From a virus: DNA of 41,499 bases. Of this stretch, positions 4-40,907 are shown piece after piece. The notes under the pieces are model-generated. The model was given only the letters and a program-made list of their open reading frames with translations. It had not been told where the DNA came from and made no database searches. The DNA lies in the IMG/VR virus record IMGVR_UViG_3300008113_006810, positions 1-41,499 of that record; one strand, written 5' to 3'. The position numbers were made by a program, and so were the translations under genes. The stretch's first letter is position 1. Each line of letters begins with the position of its first letter.

Positions 4-870
4 TTAAATTTTATTTTTTATTTGCTCAACTAAATCAAGAACTTCTGCTGACAAGTGTGTAGGAATTTGTATATTAACTCTTACATAAAGTTTTCCTACA
101 TTGCCTTTATTATCTTTCATACCTTCATTTTTTAATCCAAGAGTAGTTCCGGCTTGTATTCCAGGTGGAATGGTAACTTCAAGTCTTCTACCATCCAATG
201 TGACAAATGCTACACTTGTACCTGTAATTGCTGAAAAACAATCTACCATTACATCTCTTAATAAATTCATTCCTTCTCTAACAAATGCAGGATGTGGCAT
301 GACATTGATATTTACTAAAAGATCGCCAGGCGGAAGCCCAGCATTTGACCTATCACCCATGCCCTCATATCTGATAGTTACCCCATTGTCTACACCTTTA
401 GGGATTTCTATTTTAATAGACCTTACGTTATTACCAGGATAAGTTAATTCTAACTCTTTAGTAACCCCTGTATAAACTTCTTCTAAACTAACATTTAGAT
501 TAATATTAAGAGATTTATTTTTTCTAGGAGGTTGGTTACCCCATTGCGGGCCACCAAAGTTAAATCCAAATCCTCTTAAAATATCATCCATGTGCGGATG
601 ACCACCAAAATGGAATTCAAAAGGACTACCGCTACTATGGAAATGCTGTCCCTGTCGTTGGTTTGGATTGAGTGGATCAATTCCTTGATCTACCATCATA
701 CGTTTGTCATTGTCGCTCAATATGTCGTGAGCTTCGTTTATTTCTTTAAATTTACCTTGGTCGCCCCCGCGGTCAGGGTGATGTTTCATAGCCATTTTTC
801 TAAAGGCTTTTTTTATATCATCCTGCGTTGCTGTTTTTGGTACGCCCAATATTCCATAATAATCTTTCAT
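4..870 (-). CDS. dnaJ: DnaJ/CbpA-type J-domain co-chaperone
   Basis: A class B Hsp40 of 288 residues. Such proteins deliver unfolded clients to Hsp70 (DnaK) and stimulate its ATPase. The N-terminal J domain (about residues 3-65) begins MKDYYGILGVPKTAT and holds the HPD tripeptide at 31-33. A Gly/Phe-rich linker follows (about 70-115), then two C-terminal beta domains, with CTD I starting at NLNVSLEEVYTG. There is no CxxCxGxG zinc finger, so it resembles CbpA more than canonical DnaJ. I chose the ATG at 870 over one six codons upstream because DnaJ proteins start at this point and because a consensus promoter puts its expected start site on this A. It is the last gene at the left edge and ends in TAA at 4-6. 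With the GroES-like protein at 9.4 kb it suggests that the phage tunes host folding. Confidence 0.93.
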   Translation of the reverse strand: MKDYYGILGVPKTATQDDIKKAFRKMAMKHHPDRGGDQGKFKEINEAHDILSDNDKRMMVDQGIDPLNPNQRQGQHFHSSGSPFEFHFGGHPHMDDILRGFGFNFGGPQWGNQPPRKNKSLNINLNVSLEEVYTGVTKELELTYPGNNVRSIKIEIPKGVDNGVTIRYEGMGDRSNAGLPPGDLLVNINVMPHPAFVREGMNLLRDVMVDCFSAITGTSVAFVTLDGRRLEVTIPPGIQAGTTLGLKNEGMKDNKGNVGKLYVRVNIQIPTHLSAEVLDLVEQIKNKI

Positions 871-876
871 AGCACT

Positions 877-905
877 ATTATATAACAAAGAAAGGCAACT
901 GTCAA
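877..905 (-). promoter_or_regulatory. Consensus sigma70 promoter for dnaJ
   Basis: On the minus strand the -35 box TTGACA lies at 905-900, a 17-base spacer follows, and the -10 box TATAAT lies at 882-877. All 12 box positions match the consensus. Six bases separate the -10 box from the ATG at 870, so the predicted first transcribed base is the A of the start codon. No ribosome-binding site fits in between. The -35 box is also the loop of a terminator-like hairpin. Confidence 0.88.
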
Positions 906-914
906 GCTGCCTTT
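891..914 (-). terminator. Terminator-like hairpin with -35 box as loop
   Basis: The minus-strand RNA folds as AAAGGCAGC, loop UUGACA, GUUGCCUUU: a 9-bp stem with one G-U pair and a hexaloop, followed by the U-rich CUUUGUU. It lies just after the stop of the gene at 934-1164, so it can end the lysis transcript. The loop is exactly the -35 element of the dnaJ promoter. Confidence 0.7.
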
Positions 915-5717: not shown

Positions 5718-6443
5718 TTGTCAAGAGCGAAACAGCGTGAACGTAATAGTTCACAAAACAGCAATCTCATTGAGATTAAAAAATTTCAGCACAAAAAACG
5801 TCAGGTTCATATAGTTCCTCGCAACTTATCGCAGGAAACTTACCTAGAACTGCTCAAAAATCCACGAAAATATATAGTATTTGCTATCGGTCCTGCGGGA
5901 ACGGGCAAAACTCTATTGGGTGTGCAAATGGCTATTAAATCATTGCAAGAAGGAACTGTCGAAAAGATAGTTATAACACGCCCAGCAGTTAGTGTTGACG
6001 AAGAGCATGGATTCTTACCTGGAACGTTAAATGAAAAAATGGCTCCATGGACTAGGCCCATTTTTGATGTCTTTGAAGAACATTATACTCCGCAAGAAAT
6101 TGCGGGAATGATGGAAGACGGAATCTTGGAGATCAGCCCATTAGCCTATATGAGAGGGAGGACTTTTAAAAACAGTTTTATTATTGCTGACGAAATGCAA
6201 AACGCAACGCCAAGTCAAATGAAGATGTTACTCACTAGACTTGGGGAAAATAGCAAAATGGCGGTCACTGGCGACCTGCAACAAGCCGACCGTCCTACAG
6301 CTAACGGCCTAGTTGACTTTATTGAAAAATACAAATCTACTAACACCCATAGAGCCGTAGATTTAGTTGAATTTAATGTTAAGGATATCGAAAGGCATGA
6401 TGCTGTAAAAGAAATACTAGCACTTTACGGAGACACGTTATAA
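5718..6443 (+). CDS. phoH: PhoH-like ATPase
   Basis: A 241-residue P-loop NTPase of the PhoH family, very common in marine phages. The Walker A motif GPAGTGKT is at 58-65 and Walker B (FIIADEMQN) at about 154-162, followed by NATPSQMKMLLTRLG and the GDLQQADRP sensor region. The basic N-terminus (about 1-30) is low in order. PhoH proteins are linked to phosphate starvation or RNA metabolism, but the phage role is not settled. The start is TTG at 5718, supported by a perfect AAGGAGG seven bases upstream. It is one of only three plus-strand genes and ends in a bidirectional terminator. Confidence 0.93.
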   Translation: MSRAKQRERNSSQNSNLIEIKKFQHKKRQVHIVPRNLSQETYLELLKNPRKYIVFAIGPAGTGKTLLGVQMAIKSLQEGTVEKIVITRPAVSVDEEHGFLPGTLNEKMAPWTRPIFDVFEEHYTPQEIAGMMEDGILEISPLAYMRGRTFKNSFIIADEMQNATPSQMKMLLTRLGENSKMAVTGDLQQADRPTANGLVDFIEKYKSTNTHRAVDLVEFNVKDIERHDAVKEILALYGDTL

Positions 6444-6467
6444 GAAAAGGGGCATTGCCCCTTTTCT
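6443..6467. terminator. Bidirectional terminator between phoH and DUF2452-like gene
   Basis: A hairpin AGAAAAGGGGC, loop ATT, GCCCCTTTTCT with an 11-bp stem sits between two convergent genes. The A/T ends of the stem give a U tract in both directions, so it can stop phoH transcripts and the minus-strand clamp-loader operon. Confidence 0.85.
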
Positions 6468-6945
6468 ATTCTTTAACGTTGCCTTCTTCGTCTACTTCTA
6501 ACCAAGTGTGGTCTCCCATATATTTTACACGAGTTTGATAGACATAATCTTCAGGAGCACCTGTACTCCAATCTTTTGGTCCGTTATGAGTCAATAACGT
6601 TTTCTTTTTTCTAGCATCCCATACCAGCCAATAGCATTGTCCCATTACCACTTGAAATTGATACTCAGCGGCATGTACTGCATCAGTAACATCTAATCTT
6701 CTTTTAATAGACTCTGCTTGTTTTTGTAAAACTGTAACTAGTTCCATAATTCTGTTATACTCTTGCTGAGCATACATCCTAGCATGATTTATCATTATAT
6801 CTTTTTGTTTAGATACAGGTATTAAATCAAAATTAGGAGCACCAACTTCTGTAGGATAAGGAGTTACATTGCGATTAAAAAAGGGGACAAGTGTATCCCC
6901 TATTTTTGAATCATAACTATCTTTTCCTTTGGCCGAATTACTCAT
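6466..6945 (-). CDS. DUF2452-like protein
   Basis: A 159-residue protein. PTEVGAPNFDLIPVSKQKD near the N-terminus, a helical middle (NRIMELVTVLQKQAESIKRR) and EYQFQVVMGQCYWL then GPKDW toward the end resemble DUF2452, found in bacteria and phages with no known activity. I start it at 6945, where ATG overlaps the ferredoxin stop (TAATG); an in-frame ATG 14 codons upstream would lie well inside the ferredoxin gene. It is the last gene of the operon and stops at the bidirectional terminator. The family assignment is from memory and moderately certain. Confidence 0.65.
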   Translation of the reverse strand: MSNSAKGKDSYDSKIGDTLVPFFNRNVTPYPTEVGAPNFDLIPVSKQKDIMINHARMYAQQEYNRIMELVTVLQKQAESIKRRLDVTDAVHAAEYQFQVVMGQCYWLVWDARKKKTLLTHNGPKDWSTGAPEDYVYQTRVKYMGDHTWLEVDEEGNVKE

Positions 6946-7268
6946 TATGGTTCTAATAAATCTATTTTGTTTGGAGTCCCATTCCATTGATCTGCATCAG
7001 GCAATGGGTCTTTTTTCCTAGTTATGACGGGCCATTGATTACTTAATTTTTTATTCAAATCACGCCAAAATGGAACGTCTACAGTTGCATCATTGTCTGC
7101 AACTATCGCATCAGCAGGGCATTCAGGTACACACACTCCGCAGTCAATACATTCGTCTGGATTAATAGCTAAGAAATTTGGTCCTTCATGGAAGCAATCA
7201 ACTGGACAAACTGCAACGCAGTCTGTAAACTTGCATTTAATACAATTTTCTGTAACTAAAAATGTCAT
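6945..7268 (-). CDS. fdxA: 7Fe ferredoxin, FdxA type ([3Fe-4S][4Fe-4S])
   Basis: A 107-residue Azotobacter-type ferredoxin, a small soluble electron carrier. The nine cysteines match the family: C9, C12, C17, C21, C25, C40, C43, C46, C50. By family numbering C9, C17 and C50 bind the 3Fe cluster and C21, C40, C43 and C46 the 4Fe cluster. The C-terminal extension after about residue 60 ([17 protein letters not shown]) is also typical. It overlaps the clamp-loader gene by ATGA, so it is co-expressed with replication genes. It could feed electrons to phage or host reductases and is a client for the SUF system encoded at 34-39.5 kb. Confidence 0.93.
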
Positions 7269-8185: not shown

Positions 8186-8586
8186 TTATTAGCCTCTATA
8201 ACTCGTTGTCTTAATTCGCTTGTTGAAAAACTGTGTTTACGTTGATTAAAATAAAATTCCATAGGAATGTCATGACCTGTGAATTCTTTGCCTGCGTACT
8301 CTTCGCCTAATATTCTAACATTAATAGGAAATGAAAGTAAAATATCTCTAAGTTCTTTTTCAGTACTGTAAGGGACTATTTGATCTACAAATTTACAAGC
8401 TCTTAGCTGTGCCCAGCGTTCAAAAAGTCCTTGTACAGGTTTATTTTTAATTCCTGGACGATCAATTGTGGGGTCACTTTGTAATCCCACGATCAAAAAC
8501 TCGCATTGCTTTTTAGCTTCTTCAAGCATCATTACATGCCCTGCATGAAACAAGTCAAACGTACTACAAGTAAACCCTATTCTCAT
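8182..8586 (-). CDS. Cytidylyltransferase-fold nucleotidyltransferase
   Basis: A 134-residue enzyme of the TagD/glycerol-3-phosphate cytidylyltransferase group, which joins CTP to a phosphorylated alcohol. The motif FHAGH (13-17) binds the nucleotide. ERWAQLRACKFVDQIVPY is the usual central helix and strand, and FSTSELRQR near the C-terminus is the ISTT..R-like motif. The length is normal for the family. The substrate cannot be read from the sequence: glycerol phosphate, a sugar phosphate or another alcohol are possible. Context with clamp loader and ferredoxin gives no pathway, but such genes often serve envelope or nucleotide-sugar modification. Confidence 0.82.
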   Translation of the reverse strand: MRIGFTCSTFDLFHAGHVMMLEEAKKQCEFLIVGLQSDPTIDRPGIKNKPVQGLFERWAQLRACKFVDQIVPYSTEKELRDILLSFPINVRILGEEYAGKEFTGHDIPMEFYFNQRKHSFSTSELRQRVIEANK

Positions 8587-8966
8587 ACCATTTCTTCATA
8601 GACGCCAAGTAATTCAGCAACAATAAACAAAACACCTGCTATAGCGAATTCACCAAAAAATAAAGTAGCACCCGCTAAAATTCTAAATCCACTTTTAATA
8701 AAACTAATATGTTTATGTTTTACTGGATCTGGATAATTGCTTTCATTTTCTGATAATGATGATTTTTCTATTTCCTCAACTTTCTTTTTTGTACTGTCAA
8801 GTTTAGGTATGAAACTTTCATCAACAATTTTATCGTAAGGTGTTGTTACTTTTTGATCTGTTTTAGTTTTTCTTGTACGTTTTGATTTTTTACCTTCAAT
8901 CGCATCAAGTTTATCTTTTAAATCTTCTGCTAGTTCTATTTCTTTTTGTAGGCTGTTATTATTCAT
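8583..8966 (-). CDS. Small protein with C-terminal membrane helix
   Basis: A 127-residue protein. The first ~85 residues are charged and probably partly coiled or disordered (KKSKRTRKTKT basic patch at about 27-37). The last ~40 are hydrophobic (FRILAGATLFFGEFAIAGVL), consistent with one or two membrane helices. It is the first gene after the promoter at 8990-9018 and has two ribosome-site-like runs (AAGGAG and AGGAG) in its leader. A tail-anchored early membrane protein is the best description; its function is unknown. Confidence 0.72.
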   Translation of the reverse strand: MNNNSLQKEIELAEDLKDKLDAIEGKKSKRTRKTKTDQKVTTPYDKIVDESFIPKLDSTKKKVEEIEKSSLSENESNYPDPVKHKHISFIKSGFRILAGATLFFGEFAIAGVLFIVAELLGVYEEMV

Positions 8967-8989: not shown

Positions 8990-9018
8990 ATTATATAGAA
9001 AATAAAAGGGCCTGTCAA
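8990..9018 (-). promoter_or_regulatory. Consensus sigma70 promoter for clamp-loader operon
   Basis: On the minus strand TTGACA is at 9018-9013, with a 17-base spacer and TATAAT at 8995-8990: a perfect consensus pair. The ATG at 8966 lies 23 bases after the -10 box, leaving a short leader with a ribosome site. This promoter drives the genes from 8.97 to 6.47 kb. Its -35 box is the loop of a hairpin that ends the upstream operon. Confidence 0.88.
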
Positions 9019-9024
9019 GACCCT
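9007..9024 (-). terminator. Terminator hairpin with -35 box as loop
   Basis: The minus-strand RNA reads AGGGUC, loop UUGACA, GGCCCU, then UUUAUUUU. This gives a 6-bp stem with one U-G pair and a U-rich tail, just after the stop of the MazG-like gene at 9031. The loop is exactly the TTGACA box of the next promoter. Confidence 0.75.
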
Positions 9025-23174: not shown

Positions 23175-23450
23175 TTAAAAACTTGTAGATGCGTTCCCGC
23201 CATCTATATTTACTGTAAAATTCAGTTTATTATTATCGTCGTCATAATTAACTGAAACTCCACTGTGATCACCATTTGTGACCATTGCGGCAGCATAATC
23301 TTGTGCTATTTCAGTTAATTGTCCCGTAGTACCACCTGTTAAAGTATACAATTCGTTAAAATTGTCATTTATTTTGTTAAATGCCACACGCAATGGATCT
23401 CCATTACCAGCGTTAGCACTACTTCCAATGTTGATAGTTTTTTTAGCCAT
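23175..23450 (-). CDS. Short tail-fibre N-terminal module protein
   Basis: A 91-residue protein made almost only of the module TINIGSSANAGNGDPLRVAF then NKINDNFNELYTLTG, which also begins the 3412- and 1045-residue fibres. A short acidic beta-like tail (GVSVNYDDDNNKLNFTVNID) follows. It starts at ATG overlapping the stop of the giant gene (TAATG), with AGGAAG ahead. It may be an adaptor that fills a fibre-attachment site, or a fibre that has lost its shaft by recombination. Confidence 0.75.
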   Translation of the reverse strand: MAKKTINIGSSANAGNGDPLRVAFNKINDNFNELYTLTGGTTGQLTEIAQDYAAAMVTNGDHSGVSVNYDDDNNKLNFTVNIDGGNASTSF

Positions 23451-26400
23451 TATAGTCTTCCTACGACAACTTCAATAACGCCTTCGACACCGTCAAAGTT
23501 TTCTAAGGCTTTACCAATAATTGTACCAATTTTAGGATCGTTAGTTGGTCGAGCATAACCACCACCCGCACTAACCATCATGTCACCTTTTCTAATCTTG
23601 CCGCGAACTTTACATGGAACACGACCTTGTAAAGCAACTGCTACAACAAACTCTCCAGGATGTCCATTACCCATCAAGTAAGCAGGATCAGTTGATACTA
23701 CTCCGGCTACTCTACGTGTTTCATCTTCTGCTAAGGTTACTTCAAATTCACCACCAAATTCTAAAACTGTTCCAGGTTCATATTGCTTATCTGCAACATA
23801 ATTTTCAGCTAAGTCTTTATAGTTTGCAAAATTAGCAGTTCCATTAAACAATGTTGCATTAATTGTACCATTACCACTGATAATTGCCAAACCGCCAACT
23901 CCACCTGGCGCTGAACTAGCTGTTGGTGTATATGTTGTTCCGTTTAAATAAAGACCCTGTGAGCTAGTGGCCATACCAATAAATCCAACACTGGTTGAAG
24001 CTATACTAGCAGTAAATGTTTGAGCATTAATACTTCCGTTACTTGTTCTTCTAACAATAGTGTTGTTTGTTGTAGTGCTATCCGCTAACACTGAAATAGT
24101 TCCAGCTACAGAACCAGTAAATGTAATGTCAGAACCACTATTTCTAATAGCAATGTCTCCGCTACCTATTCCTGTTCCAGTTAATCCATTAGGTAATTGA
24201 CCACTGGTTTTAGCAAATGTAGCAGTACCATTGAAGGCAGCACCAGTATTAATGGTAGTTGGGGCACTAGCAGATCCAAATGTTCCGTCACCAACAAAGT
24301 TGACTCCATAGAAACTGTTTGCCCAAACTCTTCTAAATCTTAAACTAGCACTTTCTCCAATATCAAGTCTGTCATTTTCTGATGGAACAATAATGCTATA
24401 TTGAGCGTTGGTTAGTAGTTGTGGTGTAAGAGTTATTTTACCTCTCATTGTACCACCATTCTTTAACAACGCACCATAAGAAACGCTGCCATCCTGTCTT
24501 GCGGCAAGACCAGAAGCTGATCCATTAGGTAATAAGCCTCCTAGTGTGTCATCATTAATTAATGACACAACAGATTCTTTTGATAAACCAACAATGTCTT
24601 TTAAATTTTGAGCACTAAGTTCTGTTACAGTTCCAGAACTTGTATCATTTTCTGTACCAACTCCTAAGAATCTTCCTAAAACTCTAAAGTTACTAATATG
24701 TTGTAATCTATCAAGTCTAACACCAGTAACTTTATTTGTGGCTTGCTTTAATGATATGAATCCGCTATTGGTATTGAACTCGTCAACTAGGAAAGCAGAA
24801 ACACCATAATCGCTTGCAGTGGTGTTAGAAGCAGACGTTTGTACGTTGGCTCTATTTAATGATAATTTGGACTGTAGAATACCAGCACCTGCTTTAACAT
24901 TGTCGTTGCCTACAGGGGCGTCTGCTCCAGTCTTAAGTGCAATAGTAACTGAATTTCCAGTTCTAGTTATAGTAACATTACTTGCAGTGCTTACGCTGGC
25001 ATTTACCATAGAACCGCCAGATCCTAGAGGAACATCACCAGTGAATACTAGTAAATCACCACTTCCTGGAACACCTGTTATAGTAACGTCAGATATCTTA
25101 TTGATAAAGTTTTTACTATCAAAATAATTTAATGTTACTAAATCAGTTGATTGAATTGGATCTGCACTACCAGTAACTCTATTTCCGTTAAGATTAATGT
25201 CCTTCTGTATAGCAACAATAACAGCACTTGCGGTTGCACCACTGCCACCTTGAAGCTGTACGCTAAAGGAAGCAGGAGTTACAGGAGTTCCGCCTGTTGC
25301 AGTGATTGAAGGAGCACCAGTGTATCCAACACCAGCATTAGTGATAACAATTTGACTTATTTTTTGTGTACTTCCAGATCCTTCCATTACAGCAAAGCCA
25401 GTTGCTCTAGTGCCACCAACTATTTGAGGAACACTGAATGTAATTGTTGGAGTAGATGAATACCCAGTTCCTTGAGATAATAGATTTACACTAGCTACAC
25501 TGCCACCAATTATCACTGTTGGCGAGCTAGTATAACCATATCCTGGAGTATCTACAACAACGGCAGCAACACCTCTTGGATTTGAGCCAGCCTCTAAAAC
25601 TGCTCTGCCAGTTGCACCTGTACCACTAGTAGAGTAAAACACTACAGCAGGGGGAACAGTATAGTTTGCACCGTTGGCAGTTATGGTTACAGAGCTTACA
25701 CTGTAACGAGTTGTAGTATCATTTAATGTAAATCCTGACCAACCTGTTCTAACACCACCAGTTGATATAGCTTGATCTACATATACTTTATTAGCGGCAT
25801 CCAATGATAATGTTGGTGTTTTTAAATTAGTAATTTTGTTTGAATTTAGATCAATTCCACCTCTGTTGGTCAACACTCCACCAACATCAGTATTATCATC
25901 AATCATTGTGAAAGCTCTAACACCAGTTCTTACACCAGTTGTAGTTATAGAATAACTACCATCAAAATCAATTGTGCCACCAGCAAATACATTATCAACA
26001 TATTTTCTATTGACTAAACCACTGCCATCAGGGTTGGTACTATTAATAGCATTTTCTATACTATTAAATCCGATATCCATGTCTCCTTTCATTACACTAG
26101 TACCATCTAAGGTCATTAAACCTTTATTTGGTGTTAATGTATTGTCAACAGTGAATCTACCAGCAATAATATTGTTGATATAAGTTTTAATGGCTTTCTG
26201 TGTTGGGACGATGTTGTCGCTGTTGTCGTCCATTTTCTGATCACCAGAGAATGCACGTACAGTTTCACCAGTTAAGAATGTTAATGAGCTAACAGCACTC
26301 AAACCAATCTTAGCGGCAATAGTAACACTACCATCACCTTGATTAACGTTGAAGTAACTACCAACTCTAAAGTTACCGTCCTGGTCTGTAGATACGTGGA

Positions 26401-29400
26401 ATACACGACCTGTGCCAATTTCTTGAACGATTGCGCTTGAACTTGGTGTATTATTTGGAGGACCATAAACGTTATTAGGATAATTAGAATCGTCATAACC
26501 GCCAGCACCAACTTGTAGGAAGTCGTGTCCTGTTGCACGTACAGTTGAGAATGTGGTTGTAATACCAATTACATCACCTGCAAGATGTCTCGAATCTAAG
26601 TCAGTGTTTAAATCAAATAGATAATTAGCACCAGGACCTGAAACAGTTATAGCAGTTCCAGCAGGAATACCTGCGGTCAATAATGCACTAATTTTTATTC
26701 TATAACCAATTGTATTCTGTGACTCATCAAATATCTGTGTAACAGTTCTAATAATAGTATCTTCAGTGACACCGTTTACACCTTTAGTTGGAATTCCAGG
26801 ACCAGTTATTATTCCTCCATACTGTAGGCTAGTTGCTGTTGGTGGGAATAGTAATGATTGCAACGTGTCTTTAATTTGTGGTTCTTGTATTATATGTGTG
26901 CCAGTAGTTCCAAGAGAAATAATTGAAGTTATTTGGGACATCAACTGACCAATACGTACTCCTGCACCTGTTTCAGAAATTAAAGCGTTATCAATATTCT
27001 GTGCAACATATGATGCTCCCTCAGGATCTTGATAACTTCTAGGTATTCCTAGTTCTCTAGCAGGTAAGGCAGTCAATCCATCTTCTAGTACTTCTGCAAT
27101 TATTTCAAACAACACTTCCATTCTGTTGTCATCAACACCAGCTACACCAGCAGTTCCACTTGTATTTTGTAGTAAAGGATTTCCTAATTGTCTTGTTACA
27201 GGATTTTCTAATACAATTAATTTGGCGATTGATTTAGCATGTCTAATTGCAGAAACAGTTTGTAATTTTTGTGTTTCTAAAACTACATCTGAACTAGCAC
27301 TGCCATCATAATATGCTTCAACTGCGATTCTAGTTTTAACGTTGCCACCATATTCTAAATCATATGCAACTGCATCTATAATATAACCTACGTCTCTTCG
27401 ACATTTGGCTTGATTATAGGTAAACCCACTACTGTACGTAGTATTCAAATAAGAAATAACACCGTTCTTAATAGTATTAAGATTGTTTAATATTGCTACT
27501 CTACTATTGTTAGCAGTAGTATAATTTGCACCATTAGTATATGATGGTGAGATAGAAGTTGGTGCAGAACCAACACCAAACTCTGCAATAGTATTAACAA
27601 CTGTTAACAAATTAGAAACGGTTGTTCTAGAAGCAGCCGATCCAGAAGCCAAGTTAGTATTTTGATCTGCTGTATTTCCAGAAGTTTTTACAACAGTTTG
27701 CGCTTGTAGAACTTGATTTACTACGTCTTTCAAATGATTGAAAGCAATTATGGTTACATCTACTTGACCTTGAATTAAGGTTACTGCACCATTCCAATAT
27801 GCACTACCTGCTCCTATACTTGCAGTGTTTCCGCCGTATAAGGTATCAAACGACACAGCATCAAGGATATATTCAACATCTCTAATACATAGTTGTGGAT
27901 CATATGAATATCCGCTGAACGCTGAAATAATATAATCAGACACACCAGATATAATAGTTGTCTTATTATTATTAATGGCAGTAAATGCAGTGATTAATGT
28001 TGATTCAACTAAGGAAATTGAAGGATTTACTACTGCTGGAAGTGTATTTAGATTACCAGCAGTGATCACGCCTTTAATTATTTCTATGTTTCCACTAGCA
28101 GTTGATGCTTCATTTGATGAACCAAAACTACCAGTTCTATTTTGTGTTGAATTGTTACCACTTGATCTTGCAACAATAGTTCCTTGAATTACTTGTCCAA
28201 CAACAACTTGCAGTCTAGAGTACGCATTCAATGTGGCCACTGCTTGACCTGCACCCAATTGACTTGTTGTTCCTACGAAGTATGCTTCAGCGGCTCTAAC
28301 ACTTGCGCTGTTTCCTCCGTAAAGTATGTCGTAACACAATGCATCAACGATATATCCAACATCACGACTACATTTAGTTTGATTGTAGTTTGCTGGAGGA
28401 TTATTGACATTAACGAAAGCTATAATTTCAGATTGAATGAACGCTCTATTTTGTTGTAATTGATCTTTAGCGTTAATTTTTTCTTGTGTAGCTCCAATTG
28501 GGGTAGGATAGGTTAAAGCTGGCGCAGTACCGCCATTTAATAAATTAACAACAGTATCAAAACTATCAGTTACCCTAGATAATGCGATAGGATCAGAGTT
28601 AACTAAAGTTTGAGTTAAAGTTTTAGCTTTTAAGATACCCTGTGTAGTTTGAATCTTTTGTTCAGTTTGTAGATAATTTGAATTAGCTCTTTGATAGGCT
28701 AAACCAGCAGTTACAGAATTAAAATTTGTTCCAAAAGCTGTATCATATCTGGCAGCATCTATAATATAACCAATATCTCTTTCACACTTAGTTTGAATCG
28801 CAGGGGTGTAAGTGTATCCAACAAAATTGTAATTTACAAATGCAATAAATTCTTCTTGTAAAAATTCTTGATTTGCTCTTAGTAAGTTTACAGAATTTAA
28901 GACACCAGTGTCTACTACTGCTGGATTAGCAAATACTAACTCAGCATTGTTTTGACCACTATTAATAATTCCAGTTACTAATCCAAACTTGTTAGTAATA
29001 TCAGTAATGACAGCTGAATTTGTTATCAATGCCAGTGCCAAATCTCTTGCTTTATTAATACCTGCAATTGTTGGTATCTTTTGATTAGCAATGACGTTAG
29101 AAGAATAACTTCTTAGATATGCTAATCCAGCTGTTATAGATCTATAATTTGTGCCAAATATTACGTCATCTAAAACATAGTTAATGATTATTTCTACGTC
29201 TCTCTTACATTTTTCTTCGTCGTAGTTAAATCCAGGAAATTGATTATTCAAATAAGCAATTACATCTTCTTGTATGAACTGCTTATTATTAATTAATTGT
29301 TGTACTCCGTTTAAATTTGAGCCATTATATGGTAGAGGTAGTTGTGTACCCACAGCACCAGTGTATTGATTTACAACATATTGTGCAACCTGTGTTGCAT

Positions 29401-32400
29401 AATTAATTGCATCAACAGTTATTCCTTTTTGTTGAGCCAATACTAGTGCGGCACTTGGATTACCTTGTTGATAATAGCTGGCGCCTGCTCCACGACTTCT
29501 AACATTACCTCCATAGGTTAAATCATAAACTACTGCATCAATAATATATCCAACGTCTCTGTAACAAATATCTTGATTGTATTGGAAATTTGGATATATT
29601 GTTGATAGATAATCAATAGTTTCTTGTTGAATGAATGTTTTATTGGCAGTTAACTTGGCCACCGCATTGGCATTAAAACCAACTAAAGGTGATGCAGATT
29701 CAGTTAATAAGTAAGTCTCAACAGTTGTGCCGCCATCTGAAGTTTTTCCTAAAATACGATAGATACTTGGATCATAGTTACTAGCAGAGAATCTCAAAGC
29801 AGAGCTATTAATAATAGGCGGATTATTTGTAATTTGACTTACAGATATGGACCTTAACTGATATAGATTAAATGGATAAGCCTGCGGTTTATTATATGCA
29901 TCATTGAAAGTTTTAAGAGCAATATTTAAAGCAGGATCAATACTAATGTTCCAATAACTGTTTCTAAATGTAAAAATAGTATTACCAGGAATAGAAGCGG
30001 TTAAATTCTTATCTAATGTTAGATCCCAGTATCCGTCAACTCTTGTAAATTGAGCTGAAGCTACTTGGTTTATCATTTGATATGTCAGTGCTCTATCCAA
30101 TGCTATTGCCCATCGTTGGGTCACAGAGTCATATGTTGGTGTTCCTACTACTGTGTATCTAGCATAGTCTTGCTCTTCCAAATTCGTATCTAAAAGTTGG
30201 AAAGTCCATCCAGCTTTTGGCGCCCAAGGACTTAATGAACTTGTAATAATTGAATTATCAATTGGAGAAGTAACATTGGCAATGTAAAGCGTTGTTGCGC
30301 CTGGAGCGTTATCTGATTCTCCTAATCTTGGACTAGCTTGGAATTTGATTTCTCTAGCAGTTATTCCTGTAACAGTGAAAACACTGTCGTTATCTTCATC
30401 AACCACAGGGTTGGTAGAGGACAATGTAAACTGCATGTTTAATACTGCTGGGCGTTCTAATTTATAAACTTTTAAAGTATTTTGTCCAATAGCATTATCA
30501 CTTATGGTGTCAAAACGAACAACACCTGTGATATTTCTTTCACTTGGATTTCCCTTAACAGTATAAACTGTACTTGGTGCATCTTCAACAAAATTAGATA
30601 TTGCTCTAGCAGGTAAATCACCAAAGTTGTATGTTCCTAAATCATTAGCGTACAACATACTATTTGTACCATTAAGAGTAAATGTTTTCTTATCTACTAC
30701 GGTAATAGTATAAGTTCTTCCATCAATGTCTGTTGAAATATTAGGAGTGCCTTCAACTGCTGGTTTTAGTTCAACACCTCTAATAGATGTCATTTGAACT
30801 GAATCACCAGTTCTAAAAGGGTGACTATAAACAGTAGTAACTACCAATGGTCCTGCTATTAGTGTACCACCAGGAAGTCTAGCACGGGCAACATTCTTTA
30901 AAACAATTTCGTGTTTGTCTAATTTAAATGTTGAGTTTCTTAATGGTACGGTATCAGTGCCACCAACAATAATATTAACAGCACCAACGTTACCGTCAGC
31001 TAATGGGCTATCAATATATGGAACTATATAATTAACAGGTGTTGTTCTTATCTTACCAATTTGAATAGCTTCATTTGGGTCGTTACCTTCTGATACAAGA
31101 CCTAATAAACCATAACAGCTTGATCCACCTACAGAACGAATCTGTCCGCCTGCTCTAGCCAAATAACCAGTTCTACAATAGTAGGTGAATTGAGAAACAG
31201 CTTCACAAACTCCGTTGTTTTCTGCAATGATACCATAACCTAAATCATTGACCATTGTAAAGTCATTGGACAACATAGAACGATTACCAGCTGTTTCAAT
31301 TACCACTTGTGTTCCACTAGGCAAGAAACCTGCAGGTAAGAATGTGTCGTCTTGCTCAATAGGTGTTGTTGAGCTTAAAGTTAATGTTGCAGTACCATTT
31401 GAATCTGGAGTAGTACTGTCTATAATAATATATTTCTTTTTGGCAATGAAAAAAGTATTTGGTATTTCTGGTCTTCTCTCTAATCCAGTTACAGTAATCT
31501 TTGTTCCTTGGGCACCCTGTGTTCCAGTAAATGGGTCAGTATATCTATTGTCTAATACATAACAAACTTGATTACCAGCCATACCGTCAATAAGTTGACC
31601 ACCACCACCTTCACCAGCAAAAGTTGCACAAACTTGACCATAAGGGGAACGTGTTAAAATTTGTCCGTTTGGATCAAAGGCCATTGTAAAGCCTTTAGAT
31701 CCTAAGAATGTCATATTACGCAATTGGAAAGCATCATTGACCAATAGTGAATCACAATGTTCGTTGTCTAATAAGAATTCTAATACAGTGCCGTCAGGAA
31801 TTGATTGAGCAAGAGGTTTTGGATCTCCATTCTCATCAACAATATCCATTGTATACGTTCCTGGAGCAACATTATTATCAGGATCAGGTTCTTTATAGAT
31901 GATATTCCTTACACTACCAATTCTATAAACATTTGGCTCACCACCAGTAGAACCATAAACTAAACGCATGCCTGATTTAGGCATATAAGCTGAATTTCTA
32001 ATTTCTAAAGTTGTACTGCCAGTTATGTTTGTTACACCTACAGATAGAGCAAGATGGTGATAGTAATGTGTGTTGTACCAAAAATCAGCACCTAAGGTTC
32101 TGTCACCGCGAACAAATTTCAAGTCTTGGTTTACTGCAAGAACTGGTCCTTCTTTAGGCTTAACTAAGGTTCTTCTAAATTCATCACCTTTAATTGCAAC
32201 GTTTGGTGGAACAATAATAGGGAAATATTCAAAATAAACACCTGACTCTACCATAATGGTAATTTCTGGTTTTGGTATGAAAAATCCTCTAAATCCAAAA
32301 TCTACTCTAGATAAAACGCTATAAGGACCATCTTTCTTATTTGCTAAAGCAACGCTAATTGTGCCGCCAGGTGGAACTTCTGGATTGTTCCAATTTACCA

Positions 32401-33688
32401 ATGACTTTAAATTTAATTCAAATAAATTGTTGTTAATTTTATTGACCCTAAAAATCCCATTTAAATTTCTAGTGTCTGAATTATTAGTACCTAAAATAGC
32501 TCCACTGACCTGTACATAATCTCCATCAACAAATCCATGATTTTGTAAACTCACACGAACTCTAGTTCTTGGACTTGATGAAGCGTTGGTAAATGGTGGA
32601 ACCCAACGCTGAATTGCGGCGGGTGATAATTGATATGGTGTGTTCTGTAATTGAACACGATCCATTATCTTTTTAGCATACCTACATGCTTGACGTAAAC
32701 TTGCGAACGCTTTACTCCAACTACGACCAATTTCTTCTTCTGGATAACCATAAGCAGGATTTGGACGATCATTGTCAAAATCCCACATGTCGTCATTACC
32801 CTTTGTGCTAACAAATAGGTTGCTTGGACTGCTATAGGATTTGGCATCAACATATCCTTTGGTAACTGCTCGATAATCTTCTTCTACAAAAGCATCACCT
32901 AAAGGTGAAAGTGTTATTTCCTCATAGTCTCCTGGGTGGTCATTTAGGATCAAAGGTCCAGTCATTACACCTGCACCTCGATTTACTAATCCTGTTCCTG
33001 GATCTATTGTTTCAGTTCCCTGCAACGAAATTTTAGTATCAACATAATCTTTACGTGTAGCATGTCCTGGCAATACAGCTTGAACATTGAGATCAACAGT
33101 TTTATTACCAGTGCCGTCTGCACCTTTAATAGTAATAACTTTATCCCCAATATTAGCATTTCCGTTGTCTGGAGTAGGCTGAATCCTAAAGTTTTGGCGC
33201 ATAGTGCTGCCATTTGGATTTTGTACCGTAGATAATAAGTCAATATTGTCTCTGTTTAGGAAATTTTGATAAACCCATTTTCTAGTTACTGCATCCTGAT
33301 CAGCCGCCGGATCTCCTAAATTATTCAATTTAAAATTGGCAGCATTTAGTGAATTTGAAAGAGTTGGGTTTGGATCTAAACTGATTTGTATACCAGCTAG
33401 ACTCAAAACAATTTTAGAGGGATCTGTAGTGGAATCAATAGATAAACCATTATCTACTACAAGATCTTTGCTGACTACGTTATTTCCTAGACTATCTAAG
33501 CCTAAAACAGTATTAGGTCTTAATGGTTTTACGACATCAACCAAGTTATTAAATGTTAGTCCAGACTCTAAACCTTGACTGGCATACAACTCTTGGAAGT
33601 TAGCATTTACTTTTGAAAACGCATCACGGATACTATCGCCTGTTCCGTCGTTACCTGTTAAACCAATATTGATATCTTTTCTTGCCAT
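23450..33688 (-). CDS. Giant 3412-residue tail-fibre/structural protein
   Basis: One of the longest kinds of phage proteins. The ATG at 33688 has GGAG at ideal spacing; a TTG four codons upstream is less likely. It starts with the module ARKDINIGLTGNDGTGDSIR then DAFSKVNANFQELY. Residues about 300-1000 are beta-rich, with pectin-lyase-like features (SVLSRVDFGFRGFF, IAENNGVCEAVSQFTYYC). Residues about 1370-2130 hold six helical repeats with a CxRDVGYIIDA..YD..YGGN core. Then come GxGYxxxP repeats (about 2620-2800), fibre shaft sequence, and a C-terminal domain (ANYKDLAENYVADKQYEPGT to the end) resembling Peptidase_G2 or fibre-cap domains. It is the first gene of the fibre operon. Confidence 0.85.
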   Translation of the reverse strand: MARKDINIGLTGNDGTGDSIRDAFSKVNANFQELYASQGLESGLTFNNLVDVVKPLRPNTVLGLDSLGNNVVSKDLVVDNGLSIDSTTDPSKIVLSLAGIQISLDPNPTLSNSLNAANFKLNNLGDPAADQDAVTRKWVYQNFLNRDNIDLLSTVQNPNGSTMRQNFRIQPTPDNGNANIGDKVITIKGADGTGNKTVDLNVQAVLPGHATRKDYVDTKISLQGTETIDPGTGLVNRGAGVMTGPLILNDHPGDYEEITLSPLGDAFVEEDYRAVTKGYVDAKSYSSPSNLFVSTKGNDDMWDFDNDRPNPAYGYPEEEIGRSWSKAFASLRQACRYAKKIMDRVQLQNTPYQLSPAAIQRWVPPFTNASSSPRTRVRVSLQNHGFVDGDYVQVSGAILGTNNSDTRNLNGIFRVNKINNNLFELNLKSLVNWNNPEVPPGGTISVALANKKDGPYSVLSRVDFGFRGFFIPKPEITIMVESGVYFEYFPIIVPPNVAIKGDEFRRTLVKPKEGPVLAVNQDLKFVRGDRTLGADFWYNTHYYHHLALSVGVTNITGSTTLEIRNSAYMPKSGMRLVYGSTGGEPNVYRIGSVRNIIYKEPDPDNNVAPGTYTMDIVDENGDPKPLAQSIPDGTVLEFLLDNEHCDSLLVNDAFQLRNMTFLGSKGFTMAFDPNGQILTRSPYGQVCATFAGEGGGGQLIDGMAGNQVCYVLDNRYTDPFTGTQGAQGTKITVTGLERRPEIPNTFFIAKKKYIIIDSTTPDSNGTATLTLSSTTPIEQDDTFLPAGFLPSGTQVVIETAGNRSMLSNDFTMVNDLGYGIIAENNGVCEAVSQFTYYCRTGYLARAGGQIRSVGGSSCYGLLGLVSEGNDPNEAIQIGKIRTTPVNYIVPYIDSPLADGNVGAVNIIVGGTDTVPLRNSTFKLDKHEIVLKNVARARLPGGTLIAGPLVVTTVYSHPFRTGDSVQMTSIRGVELKPAVEGTPNISTDIDGRTYTITVVDKKTFTLNGTNSMLYANDLGTYNFGDLPARAISNFVEDAPSTVYTVKGNPSERNITGVVRFDTISDNAIGQNTLKVYKLERPAVLNMQFTLSSTNPVVDEDNDSVFTVTGITAREIKFQASPRLGESDNAPGATTLYIANVTSPIDNSIITSSLSPWAPKAGWTFQLLDTNLEEQDYARYTVVGTPTYDSVTQRWAIALDRALTYQMINQVASAQFTRVDGYWDLTLDKNLTASIPGNTIFTFRNSYWNISIDPALNIALKTFNDAYNKPQAYPFNLYQLRSISVSQITNNPPIINSSALRFSASNYDPSIYRILGKTSDGGTTVETYLLTESASPLVGFNANAVAKLTANKTFIQQETIDYLSTIYPNFQYNQDICYRDVGYIIDAVVYDLTYGGNVRSRGAGASYYQQGNPSAALVLAQQKGITVDAINYATQVAQYVVNQYTGAVGTQLPLPYNGSNLNGVQQLINNKQFIQEDVIAYLNNQFPGFNYDEEKCKRDVEIIINYVLDDVIFGTNYRSITAGLAYLRSYSSNVIANQKIPTIAGINKARDLALALITNSAVITDITNKFGLVTGIINSGQNNAELVFANPAVVDTGVLNSVNLLRANQEFLQEEFIAFVNYNFVGYTYTPAIQTKCERDIGYIIDAARYDTAFGTNFNSVTAGLAYQRANSNYLQTEQKIQTTQGILKAKTLTQTLVNSDPIALSRVTDSFDTVVNLLNGGTAPALTYPTPIGATQEKINAKDQLQQNRAFIQSEIIAFVNVNNPPANYNQTKCSRDVGYIVDALCYDILYGGNSASVRAAEAYFVGTTSQLGAGQAVATLNAYSRLQVVVGQVIQGTIVARSSGNNSTQNRTGSFGSSNEASTASGNIEIIKGVITAGNLNTLPAVVNPSISLVESTLITAFTAINNNKTTIISGVSDYIISAFSGYSYDPQLCIRDVEYILDAVSFDTLYGGNTASIGAGSAYWNGAVTLIQGQVDVTIIAFNHLKDVVNQVLQAQTVVKTSGNTADQNTNLASGSAASRTTVSNLLTVVNTIAEFGVGSAPTSISPSYTNGANYTTANNSRVAILNNLNTIKNGVISYLNTTYSSGFTYNQAKCRRDVGYIIDAVAYDLEYGGNVKTRIAVEAYYDGSASSDVVLETQKLQTVSAIRHAKSIAKLIVLENPVTRQLGNPLLQNTSGTAGVAGVDDNRMEVLFEIIAEVLEDGLTALPARELGIPRSYQDPEGASYVAQNIDNALISETGAGVRIGQLMSQITSIISLGTTGTHIIQEPQIKDTLQSLLFPPTATSLQYGGIITGPGIPTKGVNGVTEDTIIRTVTQIFDESQNTIGYRIKISALLTAGIPAGTAITVSGPGANYLFDLNTDLDSRHLAGDVIGITTTFSTVRATGHDFLQVGAGGYDDSNYPNNVYGPPNNTPSSSAIVQEIGTGRVFHVSTDQDGNFRVGSYFNVNQGDGSVTIAAKIGLSAVSSLTFLTGETVRAFSGDQKMDDNSDNIVPTQKAIKTYINNIIAGRFTVDNTLTPNKGLMTLDGTSVMKGDMDIGFNSIENAINSTNPDGSGLVNRKYVDNVFAGGTIDFDGSYSITTTGVRTGVRAFTMIDDNTDVGGVLTNRGGIDLNSNKITNLKTPTLSLDAANKVYVDQAISTGGVRTGWSGFTLNDTTTRYSVSSVTITANGANYTVPPAVVFYSTSGTGATGRAVLEAGSNPRGVAAVVVDTPGYGYTSSPTVIIGGSVASVNLLSQGTGYSSTPTITFSVPQIVGGTRATGFAVMEGSGSTQKISQIVITNAGVGYTGAPSITATGGTPVTPASFSVQLQGGSGATASAVIVAIQKDINLNGNRVTGSADPIQSTDLVTLNYFDSKNFINKISDVTITGVPGSGDLLVFTGDVPLGSGGSMVNASVSTASNVTITRTGNSVTIALKTGADAPVGNDNVKAGAGILQSKLSLNRANVQTSASNTTASDYGVSAFLVDEFNTNSGFISLKQATNKVTGVRLDRLQHISNFRVLGRFLGVGTENDTSSGTVTELSAQNLKDIVGLSKESVVSLINDDTLGGLLPNGSASGLAARQDGSVSYGALLKNGGTMRGKITLTPQLLTNAQYSIIVPSENDRLDIGESASLRFRRVWANSFYGVNFVGDGTFGSASAPTTINTGAAFNGTATFAKTSGQLPNGLTGTGIGSGDIAIRNSGSDITFTGSVAGTISVLADSTTTNNTIVRRTSNGSINAQTFTASIASTSVGFIGMATSSQGLYLNGTTYTPTASSAPGGVGGLAIISGNGTINATLFNGTANFANYKDLAENYVADKQYEPGTVLEFGGEFEVTLAEDETRRVAGVVSTDPAYLMGNGHPGEFVVAVALQGRVPCKVRGKIRKGDMMVSAGGGYARPTNDPKIGTIIGKALENFDGVEGVIEVVVGRL
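27300..29570 (-). repeat. Six-fold protein repeat in giant fibre
   Basis: The core C-x-RD-V-x-YIIDA-x-x-YD-x-x-YGGN-x-x-S occurs six times, near 29455-29569, 29130-29225, 28700-28795, 28270-28381, 27790-27896 and 27300-27410. Intervals are about 115-160 residues. Examples are CYRDVGYIIDAVVYDLTYGG and CSRDVGYIVDALCYDILYGG. Each copy ends in an A..AY or LAY pattern. The second copy is the most diverged (EIIINYVLDDVIFG). Confidence 0.85.
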
Positions 33689-33697
33689 TATGAACTC

Positions 33698-33718
33698 CAA
33701 AAAGGGCTCAATTGCCCT
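33698..33718 (-). terminator. Hairpin with U-run ahead of giant fibre gene
   Basis: The minus-strand RNA AGGGC, loop AAUUGA, GCCCU is followed by UUUUUGG. It could end the suf operon transcript after it has run through the antisense of the zinc-ribbon gene. It lies between a candidate late promoter and the ribosome site of the giant gene, so it may instead be a 5' leader stem-loop of the fibre mRNA. Confidence 0.6.
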
Positions 33719-33770: not shown

Positions 33771-34058
33771 ATGTTCATAATGTCTACTAAAGAAAAACAG
33801 GAGTATACACGAAAGAGTAAATTGGGTAAGGAACACCATTACTCAAGATTTAACACCATATTAATTTTTAGATGCGACTGTTGTGATCAGGAATTTAAGA
33901 GATATAGGAAGAACGTTGATCCAAAAAGAGTCAGCAACAATTATTTTCATGTTTGCTCAAATTGTGACTCTAAAAGATTTGCCCAGAAAAAGGGCGTAGA
34001 AAAAAGACTGATTTGGGATATGCCAGCAAGCAGTACCTTGCCAGTGGGAAAATATTAA
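33771..34058 (+). CDS. Small zinc-ribbon protein
   Basis: A basic protein of 95 residues from the ATG at 33771, or 92 from 33780; the longer upstream reading is only an open frame through the promoter region. Two Cys pairs, CDCCDQEF and CSNCDSKRF, about 27 residues apart, make a likely zinc ribbon. The N-terminus (YTRKSKLGKEHHYSR) and linker (RYRKNVDPKRVSNN) are rich in Lys and Arg, so nucleic-acid binding is plausible. It is one of three plus-strand genes. It is convergent with sufA, and the stops of the two genes share the palindrome TTAA. Confidence 0.7.
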   Translation: MFIMSTKEKQEYTRKSKLGKEHHYSRFNTILIFRCDCCDQEFKRYRKNVDPKRVSNNYFHVCSNCDSKRFAQKKGVEKRLIWDMPASSTLPVGKY

Positions 34059-34360
34059 AAACTAACACTTTCCCCACAGCCGCAGGTATTTTTGACTTGT
34101 GGATTAATTATTTTTAATGTTGAGCTAAAAGTACTTGTTTCTAAATCTATTGTTGAATCTTGAACGTATAGATATGTCATTTTATCTATCAAAACTTTAG
34201 CTCCGTGCTGTTCCATTACAATATCATTGTCTTGATTAGAATCAGCAACTGCCCATTCATATTTGAACCCGTTACATCCGCTTTCTTTTACCTTCAGCCT
34301 AAACCCAATATCACTTTTGGATTTGATATATTTTGCGGCTGCTTCAGTGATTTCAATCAT
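34055..34360 (-). CDS. sufA: A-type Fe-S carrier (SufA/IscA/ErpA)
   Basis: A 101-residue A-type carrier that receives Fe-S clusters from the SufBCD scaffold and passes them to apo-proteins. The three conserved cysteines are present: C29 in KESGCNGFKY and C93, C95 in NTCGCGESVSF. Length and spacing are normal. It is the last gene of the suf operon and overlaps sufT by 8 bases. Single A-type carriers are common in marine T4-like phages; here it sits in a full pathway. SufA, IscA and ErpA cannot be told apart with confidence, but the context favours SufA. Confidence 0.93.
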   Translation of the reverse strand: MIEITEAAAKYIKSKSDIGFRLKVKESGCNGFKYEWAVADSNQDNDIVMEQHGAKVLIDKMTYLYVQDSTIDLETSTFSSTLKIINPQVKNTCGCGESVSF

Positions 34361-34661
34361 AAATTCCTAACTCCAATTTAGCTTCATCTGACATCATGTC
34401 CTTGGTCCATGGTGGATCCCAAACGATGTTTAGTTTAACTTCTTTGACTTCTGGTATTTCTTTTATTGCTTCTTCGACCTCATTTGGTAGTGTTTCTGCT
34501 GCCGGGCAGAAAGCACTAGTCAAAGTCATGTTAACTGTGACCGAGTCATTAACTACGCATATATCGTAAACTAATCCTAAGTCGTAAATATTTACATGAA
34601 TTTCAGGATCATAAACTGTGCGTATTGCTTCAATTATCTGCTCTTTTGTTGGCGATTTCAT
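34353..34661 (-). CDS. sufT: SufT/MIP18-family (DUF59) protein
   Basis: A 102-residue protein of the MIP18/PaaD family that helps mature Fe-S proteins. The DPE motif (18-20), NIYDLGLVYDI and the conserved Cys in SAFCPAAETLP (about 52) are typical, followed by VKLNIVWDPPWTKDMMS. In alphaproteobacteria sufT often lies in the suf operon, as here. It overlaps the end of sufE by about 30 bases, so the two are tightly coupled. Confidence 0.92.
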   Translation of the reverse strand: MKSPTKEQIIEAIRTVYDPEIHVNIYDLGLVYDICVVNDSVTVNMTLTSAFCPAAETLPNEVEEAIKEIPEVKEVKLNIVWDPPWTKDMMSDEAKLELGIYD

Positions 34662-35049
34662 AAATTCTCGTAATTAAATTTCCAACTCCGTTTTGTCGTC
34701 CTGGAGTTAGCAGTCCAGCTATTCCAAGACTGTTTAAAATTTTTGGATCAGTTTCAAGTATCTCTTCTTTAGTTTTGCCATTAAAAATTTCTAAAATAAT
34801 AGAAACTAGACCTCTGACTATCTTAGCTTCGCTGTAGGCTTTAAATTCTAATTTTTTGTCTCCAAAGTCCCTAATCCATAATTTACTCTGACATCCTAAT
34901 ACCAAATATTGTGGGATTTGATATATTTCCCCCAACTCTGGTAATTTATCCCCGTAGTCAATTATATACTCATACTTGAGCATGTCGTCATCAAACAACT
35001 CAAGTTCATCTCTAATTTCAGATATCTTATCTTTAATTGAGTTTTTCAT
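34630..35049 (-). CDS. sufE: SufE sulfur-transfer protein
   Basis: A 139-residue SufE that takes the persulfide sulfur from SufS and passes it to SufB. The acceptor Cys is C53 in YLVLGCQSKLWI, matching the GCQS motif of bacterial SufE. VRGLVSIILEIFNGKT and LTPGRQNGVGN are also family features. I start it at the ATG at 35049, not four codons upstream, because family members begin close to this point; it overlaps the sufS end by 17 bases. Complete by length. Confidence 0.92.
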   Translation of the reverse strand: MKNSIKDKISEIRDELELFDDDMLKYEYIIDYGDKLPELGEIYQIPQYLVLGCQSKLWIRDFGDKKLEFKAYSEAKIVRGLVSIILEIFNGKTKEEILETDPKILNSLGIAGLLTPGRQNGVGNLITRIYEIANKRADN

Positions 35050-36238
35050 AACAAGTAACAAGGCCTTTTTTTAGTTTATCAATGTCTTCTTTAGTATTGT
35101 AACATGCCCAACTGGCACGAACAACACCATTAATAAACTTTTCTTCTACAATAGGTTGAGCGCACAAAAACCCACTTCGAACTGCAATGTTTTGTGCTTC
35201 TAATAGTTGTGCAACATCACTAGGATGGCAATTTTTAATATTAAAACTAATAAGTCCTGCTTTGTAGAAGTTTGGATGAAATTGATCAATGAAGTCTAAC
35301 TCATTTAGCATCATTTGTATATTTGCATTCATGAGTTTATTGTGTACTTTAATTTCCTCAATATCGTAACTTAAAAACCAATCAATGGCGGCACCCATGG
35401 CAATGACTCCTCCAATATTAGGAGTTCCTGCCTCCAACCTCCAAGGAAGTTGATTAACTCTTATAGTATCCCAACTAACAGAACTAATCATATCTCCGCC
35501 CCAAAGTAGTGGCTCTATTTTTTCTAAGTATTTGTGCTTCCCATATAGAACACCAACACCTGTAGGTCCGTATAATTTATGAGCACTGAAAGCAATAAAA
35601 TCTGCGTCTAAATCTTGAACATCAACTTTTTCTTTGGCAATACTTTGTGCGGCATCTAGAACTGTTATACCCTCAAATTCTTTTACTAACTTAAAAAGAT
35701 CTTTAATAGGCTGTACATTGCCAATAGTATTATTAACGTGTGCGATACTGAAAAGCACTTTTCCATTGCATTCTTCTAATACTTCTTCTAACTGTGCTAA
35801 GTCTAAAGATCCGTCTTTAATGACATTTATTTTTTGGAAGTTAATGCCATATTTTTCAGCTACATTGATCCAAGGTAGAAGGTTGGCATGATGCTCACTT
35901 TCAGTAACAATGATTGTATCATTAGGACCCCATTTATTACAAATGCCAAGTGCTATCAGATTAATACTATGCGTGGTACCACTTGTAAAAACTATTTCGC
36001 TATCTTTTTTTGCATTGATTAAAGTCTTGACTTTACTACGAACACCTTCATATTCTTCAGTGGCTCGTTCTGCTAATCTATGTATACCTCGATGTATGTT
36101 TGCTTTATAATTTTTATGATAATCCACCAAAGCATCTACAACCACATCCGGGCAAAAGGTTGTGGCTGCATTATCAAAATATGTTACGTTAGGAAGACTA
36201 AACTCTTGTTTAATCTCGGAAAAAATCCTTGATTTCAT
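35033..36238 (-). CDS. sufS: SufS cysteine desulfurase
   Basis: A 401-residue PLP enzyme that converts cysteine to alanine and leaves persulfide sulfur for Fe-S assembly. The PLP Lys is K221 in FSAHKLYGPTGVGVLYGK, D195 and Q198 are in VLDAAQSI, and the SEHHAN motif is at 114-119. The active Cys is C359 in RSGFLCAQP, placing it in the group II (SufS) class. Length is normal for the family. It overlaps sufD by 29 bases and sufE by 17. All catalytic residues seen are intact, so an active enzyme is expected. Confidence 0.95.
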   Translation of the reverse strand: MKSRIFSEIKQEFSLPNVTYFDNAATTFCPDVVVDALVDYHKNYKANIHRGIHRLAERATEEYEGVRSKVKTLINAKKDSEIVFTSGTTHSINLIALGICNKWGPNDTIIVTESEHHANLLPWINVAEKYGINFQKINVIKDGSLDLAQLEEVLEECNGKVLFSIAHVNNTIGNVQPIKDLFKLVKEFEGITVLDAAQSIAKEKVDVQDLDADFIAFSAHKLYGPTGVGVLYGKHKYLEKIEPLLWGGDMISSVSWDTIRVNQLPWRLEAGTPNIGGVIAMGAAIDWFLSYDIEEIKVHNKLMNANIQMMLNELDFIDQFHPNFYKAGLISFNIKNCHPSDVAQLLEAQNIAVRSGFLCAQPIVEEKFINGVVRASWACYNTKEDIDKLKKGLVTCYEKLN

Positions 36239-37737: not shown

Positions 37738-37758
37738 TATCCTATTGAATCCTTAATT

Positions 37759-39491: not shown

Positions 39492-39498
39492 ACTGATT

Positions 39499-39527
39499 AT
39501 TATAAGATATTTGTTAATGTTTGTCAA
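39499..39527 (-). promoter_or_regulatory. Perfect consensus sigma70 promoter of the suf operon
   Basis: On the minus strand TTGACA at 39527-39522, a 17-base spacer and TATAAT at 39504-39499. Seven bases lie between the -10 box and the ATG at 39491, leaving a leader of about zero or one base. No Fur or IscR site is obvious. This should give strong, host-polymerase-driven, early transcription of all eight genes. Confidence 0.9.
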
Positions 39528-40865: not shown

Positions 40866-40897
40866 AAGGACATAATACATTATAGCATTATGTCCTT
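40866..40897 (-). terminator. Terminator hairpin with -10 box in the loop
   Basis: The minus-strand RNA AAGGACAUAAU, 10-base loop, AUUAUGUCCUU is an 11-bp perfect stem followed by UUUUA. It can end transcription from the queD side. The loop GCTATAATGT carries the -10 box TATAAT of the uvsE promoter. Confidence 0.8.
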
Positions 40898-40907
40898 GGA
40901 TTGTCAA
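40879..40907 (-). promoter_or_regulatory. Consensus sigma70 promoter for uvsE
   Basis: On the minus strand TTGACA at 40907-40902, 17 bases, TATAAT at 40884-40879. The likely start ATG at 40848 is 30 bases downstream. Promoter and terminator stem overlap, so a terminator hairpin surrounds the -10 box. Confidence 0.88.

Follow-up and report, generated by a model that had tools for sequence, protein, structure and literature searches.

A predicted border element of large T4-like phages in which a promoter box forms the loop of a terminator hairpin

Hairpin promoters exist: those of the N4 virion RNA polymerase are recognised as hairpins with a 3-nt loop and a conserved sequence. Signals for stopping and starting transcription can also lie side by side, as in kayvirus 515A1, where terminator t97 is followed by early promoter p98 at a unit border, the two being described as adjacent (PMC7698491). 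Bacterial RNA polymerase mostly remains bound to its template after intrinsic termination and can reinitiate at a promoter nearby (37% of terminations, and 55% with added sigma70; PMC6978380), and this recycling prefers the closest promoter (PMC11347151). The inspection of a 41.5-kb fragment of an uncultivated phage (IMG/VR record IMGVR_UViG_3300008113_006810; the whole stretch of 41,499 nt is referred to as the window) revealed an arrangement in which the two signals share the same bases.

The window contains four perfect TTGACA-N17-TATAAT promoters, all on the (-) strand (905-877, 9018-8990, 39527-39499 and 40907-40879), while 0.027 were expected from dinucleotide shuffles of the window. At three of these sites (about 0.9, 9.02 and 40.9 kb), all on the (-) strand and just as an initial annotation had described them, a promoter box forms a hairpin loop. 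The fourth promoter, missing from that annotation, has no hairpin. The features are as follows:

4..870, (-): dnaJ (Pfam matches DnaJ and DnaJ_C; ATG at 870-868)
877..882, (-): element 1, -10 box TATAAT
883..890, (-): element 1, T-rich tail CTTTGTTA, also the second half of the 17-nt spacer (weak, 5 T in 8)
891..899, (-): element 1, 3′ arm GTTGCCTTT, also the first half of the promoter spacer
900..905, (-): element 1, six-base loop, which is the -35 box TTGACA
906..914, (-): element 1, 5′ arm AAAGGCAGC of the putative terminator hairpin
8990..8995, (-): element 2, -10 box TATAAT
8997..9006, (-): element 2, T-rich tail TTTATTTTCT
9007..9012, (-): element 2, 3′ arm GGCCCT
9013..9018, (-): element 2, loop, which is the -35 box TTGACA
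9019..9024, (-): element 2, 5′ arm AGGGTC
39499..39527, (-): fourth perfect promoter TTGACA-N17-TATAAT, of the SUF operon, without hairpin (contrast case)
40866..40878, (-): element 3, 3′ arm; predicted transcription start at about 40872, within the arm
40879..40884, (-): element 3, six-base loop, which is exactly the -10 box TATAAT
40885..40897, (-): element 3, 5′ arm of a 13-bp stem, within the promoter spacer
40902..40907, (-): element 3 (type B), -35 box TTGACA, ahead of the hairpin stem

Element 1 (914-891, (-) strand) reads AAAGGCAGC-TTGACA-GTTGCCTTT and has a 9-bp stem including one G.U pair, while element 2 (9024-9007, (-) strand; AGGGTC-TTGACA-GGCCCT) has a 6-bp stem, again with one G.U pair. 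Element 3 carries a T6 run at 40867-40862 on the (-) strand. All three RNA hairpins were more stable than shuffled sequences, as expected for terminators, with predicted folds of -12.0 kcal/mol (z -3.4), -8.9 kcal/mol (z -2.3) and, for element 3 (40897-40866), -17.2 kcal/mol (z -10). The U-rich tail of the dnaJ copy is weak (5/8) and the stem of element 2 has only 6 bp, so termination at these two sites could be partial. A TTGACA was counted as enclosed if it was exactly the loop of a stem with six or more base pairs, three or more of them G-C. Of the 37 TTGACA in the window, only those of elements 1 and 2 are enclosed in this way. Shuffled flanks produced such a stem with p = 1.7e-4 per promoter, as against two of the four real promoters. 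The proposed element thus survived the comparison with shuffled sequence both for the promoters (0.027 vs 4) and for their stems. No Rfam family matched the window.

The ATG of dnaJ lies 6 nt past the -10 box of element 1, a spacing from which the mRNA is predicted to be leaderless; 6 nt is also a peak of this distance among other perfect promoters of these phages. Upstream of the element lies a lysis cassette with endolysin (4344-3706) and holin (2354-1815) genes. This gene content fits the initial suggestion that the element may end the lysis transcript and start that of dnaJ. Elsewhere in the window, a strong symmetric hairpin, AGAAAAGGGGCATTGCCCCTTTTCT, lies at 6443-6467 between the convergent phoH (+) and 6466-6987 (-) genes; by its layout it would be a bidirectional terminator. 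A complete operon for SUF iron-sulfur assembly (34055-39527, (-) strand) follows the fourth promoter, with each of its genes (SufB, glutaredoxin, SufC, SufD, SufS, SufE, SufT-like and SufA) supported by Pfam. SufBD-type genes were also found in relatives G008 and G014, and sufB of Microcystis phage MaAM05 is 67% identical. A UvsE-like UV endonuclease gene (39962-40860, (-) strand) is apparently split across two frames, by either an assembly frameshift or a broken gene.

The relatives of the window are contigs of up to 364 kb, in which genes were called by a simple script. Most of the long ones contain Gp23, the T4-type major capsid family, and the nearest isolate matches are PA5oct-type Pseudomonas phages (Arenbergviridae), Agrobacterium phage Atu_ph07 and Sinorhizobium phage Phosso. 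The region just before dnaJ was read in 58 unique relatives without selecting for hairpins. Two layouts were found there. In layout A (20/58), as in elements 1 and 2, the hairpin loop is formed by the -35 box (TTGACA or TTGACG), and the 17-nt spacer is made up of the 3′ arm and the T tract. In layout B (27/58), as in element 3, the 5′ arm fills the spacer, the loop is formed by the -10 box and the T tract follows the 3′ arm; in a long form, the stem extends back into the -35 box. Together they account for about 47 of the 58. The boxes at this border are fixed across the relatives, while the stem sequences vary. In most layout-A relatives the dnaJ ATG lies 5-6 nt past the -10 box, so that their mRNAs should likewise be leaderless. 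A few relatives have a degenerate hairpin or none; three of them (L010, L032 and L075) keep the dnaJ promoter without any hairpin, indicating that the terminator is not indispensable.

In the main layout-A stem family, 94% of the alignment cells are paired and six of the ten pairs show compensatory changes, the 15 compensatory cells being well above the 4.4 of shuffled alignments and far above slid controls too. For this alignment (A3), a single base outside the stem was removed from L051, the one sequence with an 18-nt spacer, so that no gap column arose. RNAalifold predicted no structure for the mixed layout-B alignment, because the 3′ arms vary in length and were misaligned by MAFFT. The stability of layout B was therefore taken from single-sequence folds: complete hairpins before dnaJ gave -14 to -27 kcal/mol, and the incomplete sequence L079 folded poorly.

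Layout A is not confined to dnaJ. Counterparts of element 2 lie before the same cytidylyltransferase gene in further relatives, with different stems (GGGTC/GACCC, GGGGCC/GGCCCC and GGGCTA/TAGCCC), and in relative G002 the gene directly after the element looks, by eye, like the 8583-8966 protein of the window. Among 15 records that are complete or long, one of them the window, 13 have one to three copies of layout A; layout B occurs about once each in some of the phages that group with the window. Isolates with layout A are PA5oct (at about 186478) and the Synechococcus phages S-CREM1 (65752 and 79007) and Sf-CH11 (52466, 172213 and 193246); of the two sites detected in PA5oct, one (65808) looks spurious. 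The layout-A scan found no element in the Syn9 and G005 genomes. The whole layout-A set comprises 106 sites with 52 different arms. Counts drawn across relatives come from sequences that are not independent, although the 52 distinct arms argue for repeated origin or remodelling.

Scans of larger sequence sets, as the initial annotation had envisaged for the full genome and related phages, gave strong enrichment over controls for inverted repeats with a promoter box in the loop. In a non-redundant 2.9-Mb set of DNA from related phages, TTGACA was the commonest six-base loop of T-tract hairpins after UUCG types, with 11 terminator sites compared with a mean of 0.3 for its permutations; a -10 box followed in 10 of the 11. 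Around perfect promoters, the loop centres of same-strand terminators clustered at -35 and -10, and separate tandem pairs, a terminator and then a promoter within 60-200 bp, were almost absent. A pattern blind to the 5′ arm (TTGACA, CCTTTT in the spacer, TATAAT) was also searched in viral contigs. Among the matches listed, a hairpin was present at 42 of 116 unique sites, compared with a mean of 5.7 when the upstream flank was dinucleotide-shuffled. This null replaced an earlier one in which flanks were swapped (36/116 vs 11.2 among the matches listed), because swapped flanks carry the same arms. With a scrambled -35 hexamer the same pattern gave a hairpin at 3 of 75 sites, and in the bacterial genomes sampled at 2 of 117. 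The element recurs in many phages and was almost absent from the bacterial genomes sampled.

The stem was also held fixed, as a terminator GGGTC-loop-GACCCTTTT, in 2.9 million viral contigs. With the loop TTGACA it was found in 49 stretches (26 unique sites), and a -10 box matching at least 5/6 positions lay exactly 17 nt on in 26/26, in agreement with the 16-18 nt that separate the -35 and -10 consensus boxes of sigma-70 promoters. With one scrambled loop, TACTGA, the stem had zero occurrences in these contigs. The UUCG control (loop TTCG) was common, with a -10 box at the same place in only 3 of 83. That the arrangement reflects chance or base composition is ruled out by the loop-hexamer, shuffled-flank, window-shuffle and scrambled-loop controls, and its probability is negligible. 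The initial view of a selected terminator-promoter chimera is, as against chance, strongly supported by both homologous and unrelated sites.

Several observations bear on whether the hairpin acts as RNA or as DNA. In the layout-A set, at least five T in the eight positions after the stem were found at 72 of the 106 sites, compared with 10 for the mirror-image A-rich lead, so that the U-rich tract right after the stem belongs to one strand, although it is weak at the dnaJ copy of the window. Within the stems, G.T oppositions outnumbered A.C ones (21 vs 7), as expected if the folded molecule is the RNA of this strand. Alternatively, the inverted repeat could be a DNA-level dyad, an operator or a cruciform exposing the box, that regulates the promoter rather than ending RNA. 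The existence of hairpin promoters such as those of N4, and of spacer dyads without T tails in these same genomes, lends this reading some support, but a T tail on one side only and the surplus of G.T oppositions indicate that a single strand's RNA is involved, the boxes are the sigma-70 consensus with 17-nt spacing, and both the sequence and the register of the stem vary where an operator would need conservation. We consider it quite improbable. As an operator, which requires a conserved arm sequence, the dyad was rejected on its 52 different arms. An N4-type hairpin promoter was likewise rejected, given these 52 arms and layout-A loops of mostly 5-7 nt rather than a conserved hairpin with a 3-nt loop; a 3416-aa ORF that bears on the presence of such a polymerase (23450-33700) had no Pfam match in the window, which is a genome fragment only. 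A separate class of perfect promoters has a strong spacer dyad that starts in the -35 box, is centred at about +10 and lacks a T tail, as in TTGACAGGGCCTTCGGGCCCTGTTATAAT; examples are G001:351439, G005:216879 and Syn9:18628.

The two signals are adjusted to each other. The -35 box has G as its last base at 17 layout-A sites, and all 17 carry C directly ahead of TTGAC, so that the sixth promoter base closes the loop. Its covariation with the closing base shows a mutual adjustment of the promoter and the putative terminator.

The neighbouring units differ in their motifs. ATAAATA, a T4-type late box, was the core of the most enriched 8-mer before predicted genes in the long relatives (L165-L241). 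In the window, TAAATA boxes, which fall within this enriched class, stand ahead of genes for structural proteins and lysis on the upstream side of each of the two layout-A elements; no late box was found between either element and its next gene. From this motif enrichment the upstream units are likely late-type, and the presence of late boxes upstream with none after the element makes a late-to-early border its likely role. Most relatives also have a TAAATA immediately ahead of the layout-A hairpin at the dnaJ border, which may be a third nested signal. A late-type box precedes both the 3416-aa ORF, on the (-) strand, and a G008 gene of comparable size (3382 codons).

We therefore regard the element, with good confidence, as a nested border that would combine a stop and a sigma-70 start between two transcription units of the same strand. 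Its sequence, position, conservation, covariation and strand asymmetry are direct observations. The upstream unit would hold genes for virion structure or lysis behind T4-type late boxes, and RNA reading through from it would carry both arms and the U-rich tail and be terminated. The same double-stranded DNA would be the consensus sigma-70 (early) promoter of the next unit. At the predicted start sites, new RNA would begin downstream of the 5′ arm in either layout; without that arm the hairpin cannot form, so the new RNA would escape the terminator. As only through-going RNA would form the hairpin, the element would be a one-way border, with its predicted stop activity, promoter activity and strength, and late-to-early direction packed into about 40 bp between tightly spaced genes.

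Terminator and promoter might instead have been selected separately and pushed together by a need for short intergenic regions, without interacting in function. In line with this, the gaps between the genes flanking each element in the window are short, about 50-65 nt, and intergenic DNA makes up 3-8% of these genomes. Against it, the boxes are exactly the loops, repeatedly and in two layouts, the sixth -35 base covaries with the closing base, and escape of the new RNA is automatic in the nested layout. We consider this alternative less probable than the nested border.

The nested border could also be extended, without conflict, by a coupling of termination to initiation, as the initial annotation had suggested. 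In this version the polymerase, once terminated, would not leave the DNA and would be taken up by the promoter on which it already sits. In such a relay, which we put forward only speculatively, polymerase released at the T tract would cover the promoter core and be recaptured by sigma70, and upstream transcription would set the rate of downstream firing. The reinitiation reported at nearby promoters (37%/55%; PMC6978380), with the closest favoured (PMC11347151), is in line with it; so are the layout-A release point, which would fall between the -35 and -10 boxes at a distance of about zero, and the near-absence of tandem pairs within 60-200 bp. By analogy, recycling could plausibly speed initiation at the overlap. 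However, compactness alone predicts the same layout, compact overlap and escape of the new RNA suffice to explain it, and late upstream transcription with a phage sigma would release a polymerase without sigma70. We hold coupling to be unlikely.

On the nested-border reading, a terminator and a strong promoter can occupy one and the same 40 bp of phage DNA, and the two layouts would solve one problem: the old RNA is stopped and the new RNA escapes. With these elements, nature provides constructs for testing whether the recycling of polymerase is relevant in vivo, and synthetic biology could use them as a short promoter part with built-in insulation. Software that predicts promoters and terminators independently of each other may overlook these borders or place them wrongly.

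A search limited to the open-licence literature found no published description of a nested chimera; the parts are known, and a family of recurring border elements with nested signals is, within that literature, apparently new. With intrinsic (Rho-independent) terminators the element shares a GC-containing stem, a short loop, a 3′ T-rich tail and a stable predicted fold, but its loop is a promoter box rather than a stable tetraloop, and in layout A the tail is part of the promoter spacer. Like T4-type early sigma-70 promoters it has TTGACA-N17-TATAAT ahead of genes, often with an ATG 5-7 nt past the -10 box, but here the promoter is embedded in a terminator hairpin. Hairpin and promoter coincide as in N4, whereas the present elements have stems of unconstrained sequence and sigma-70-type boxes. 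Recycling termination also involves a terminator near a downstream promoter, but it was shown in vitro with separated, not nested, signals (PMC6978380, PMC11347151). Kayvirus t97/p98 likewise places a stop and an early start at one border that the late phase can read through (PMC7698491); there the signals are adjacent, whereas here they share the same bases.
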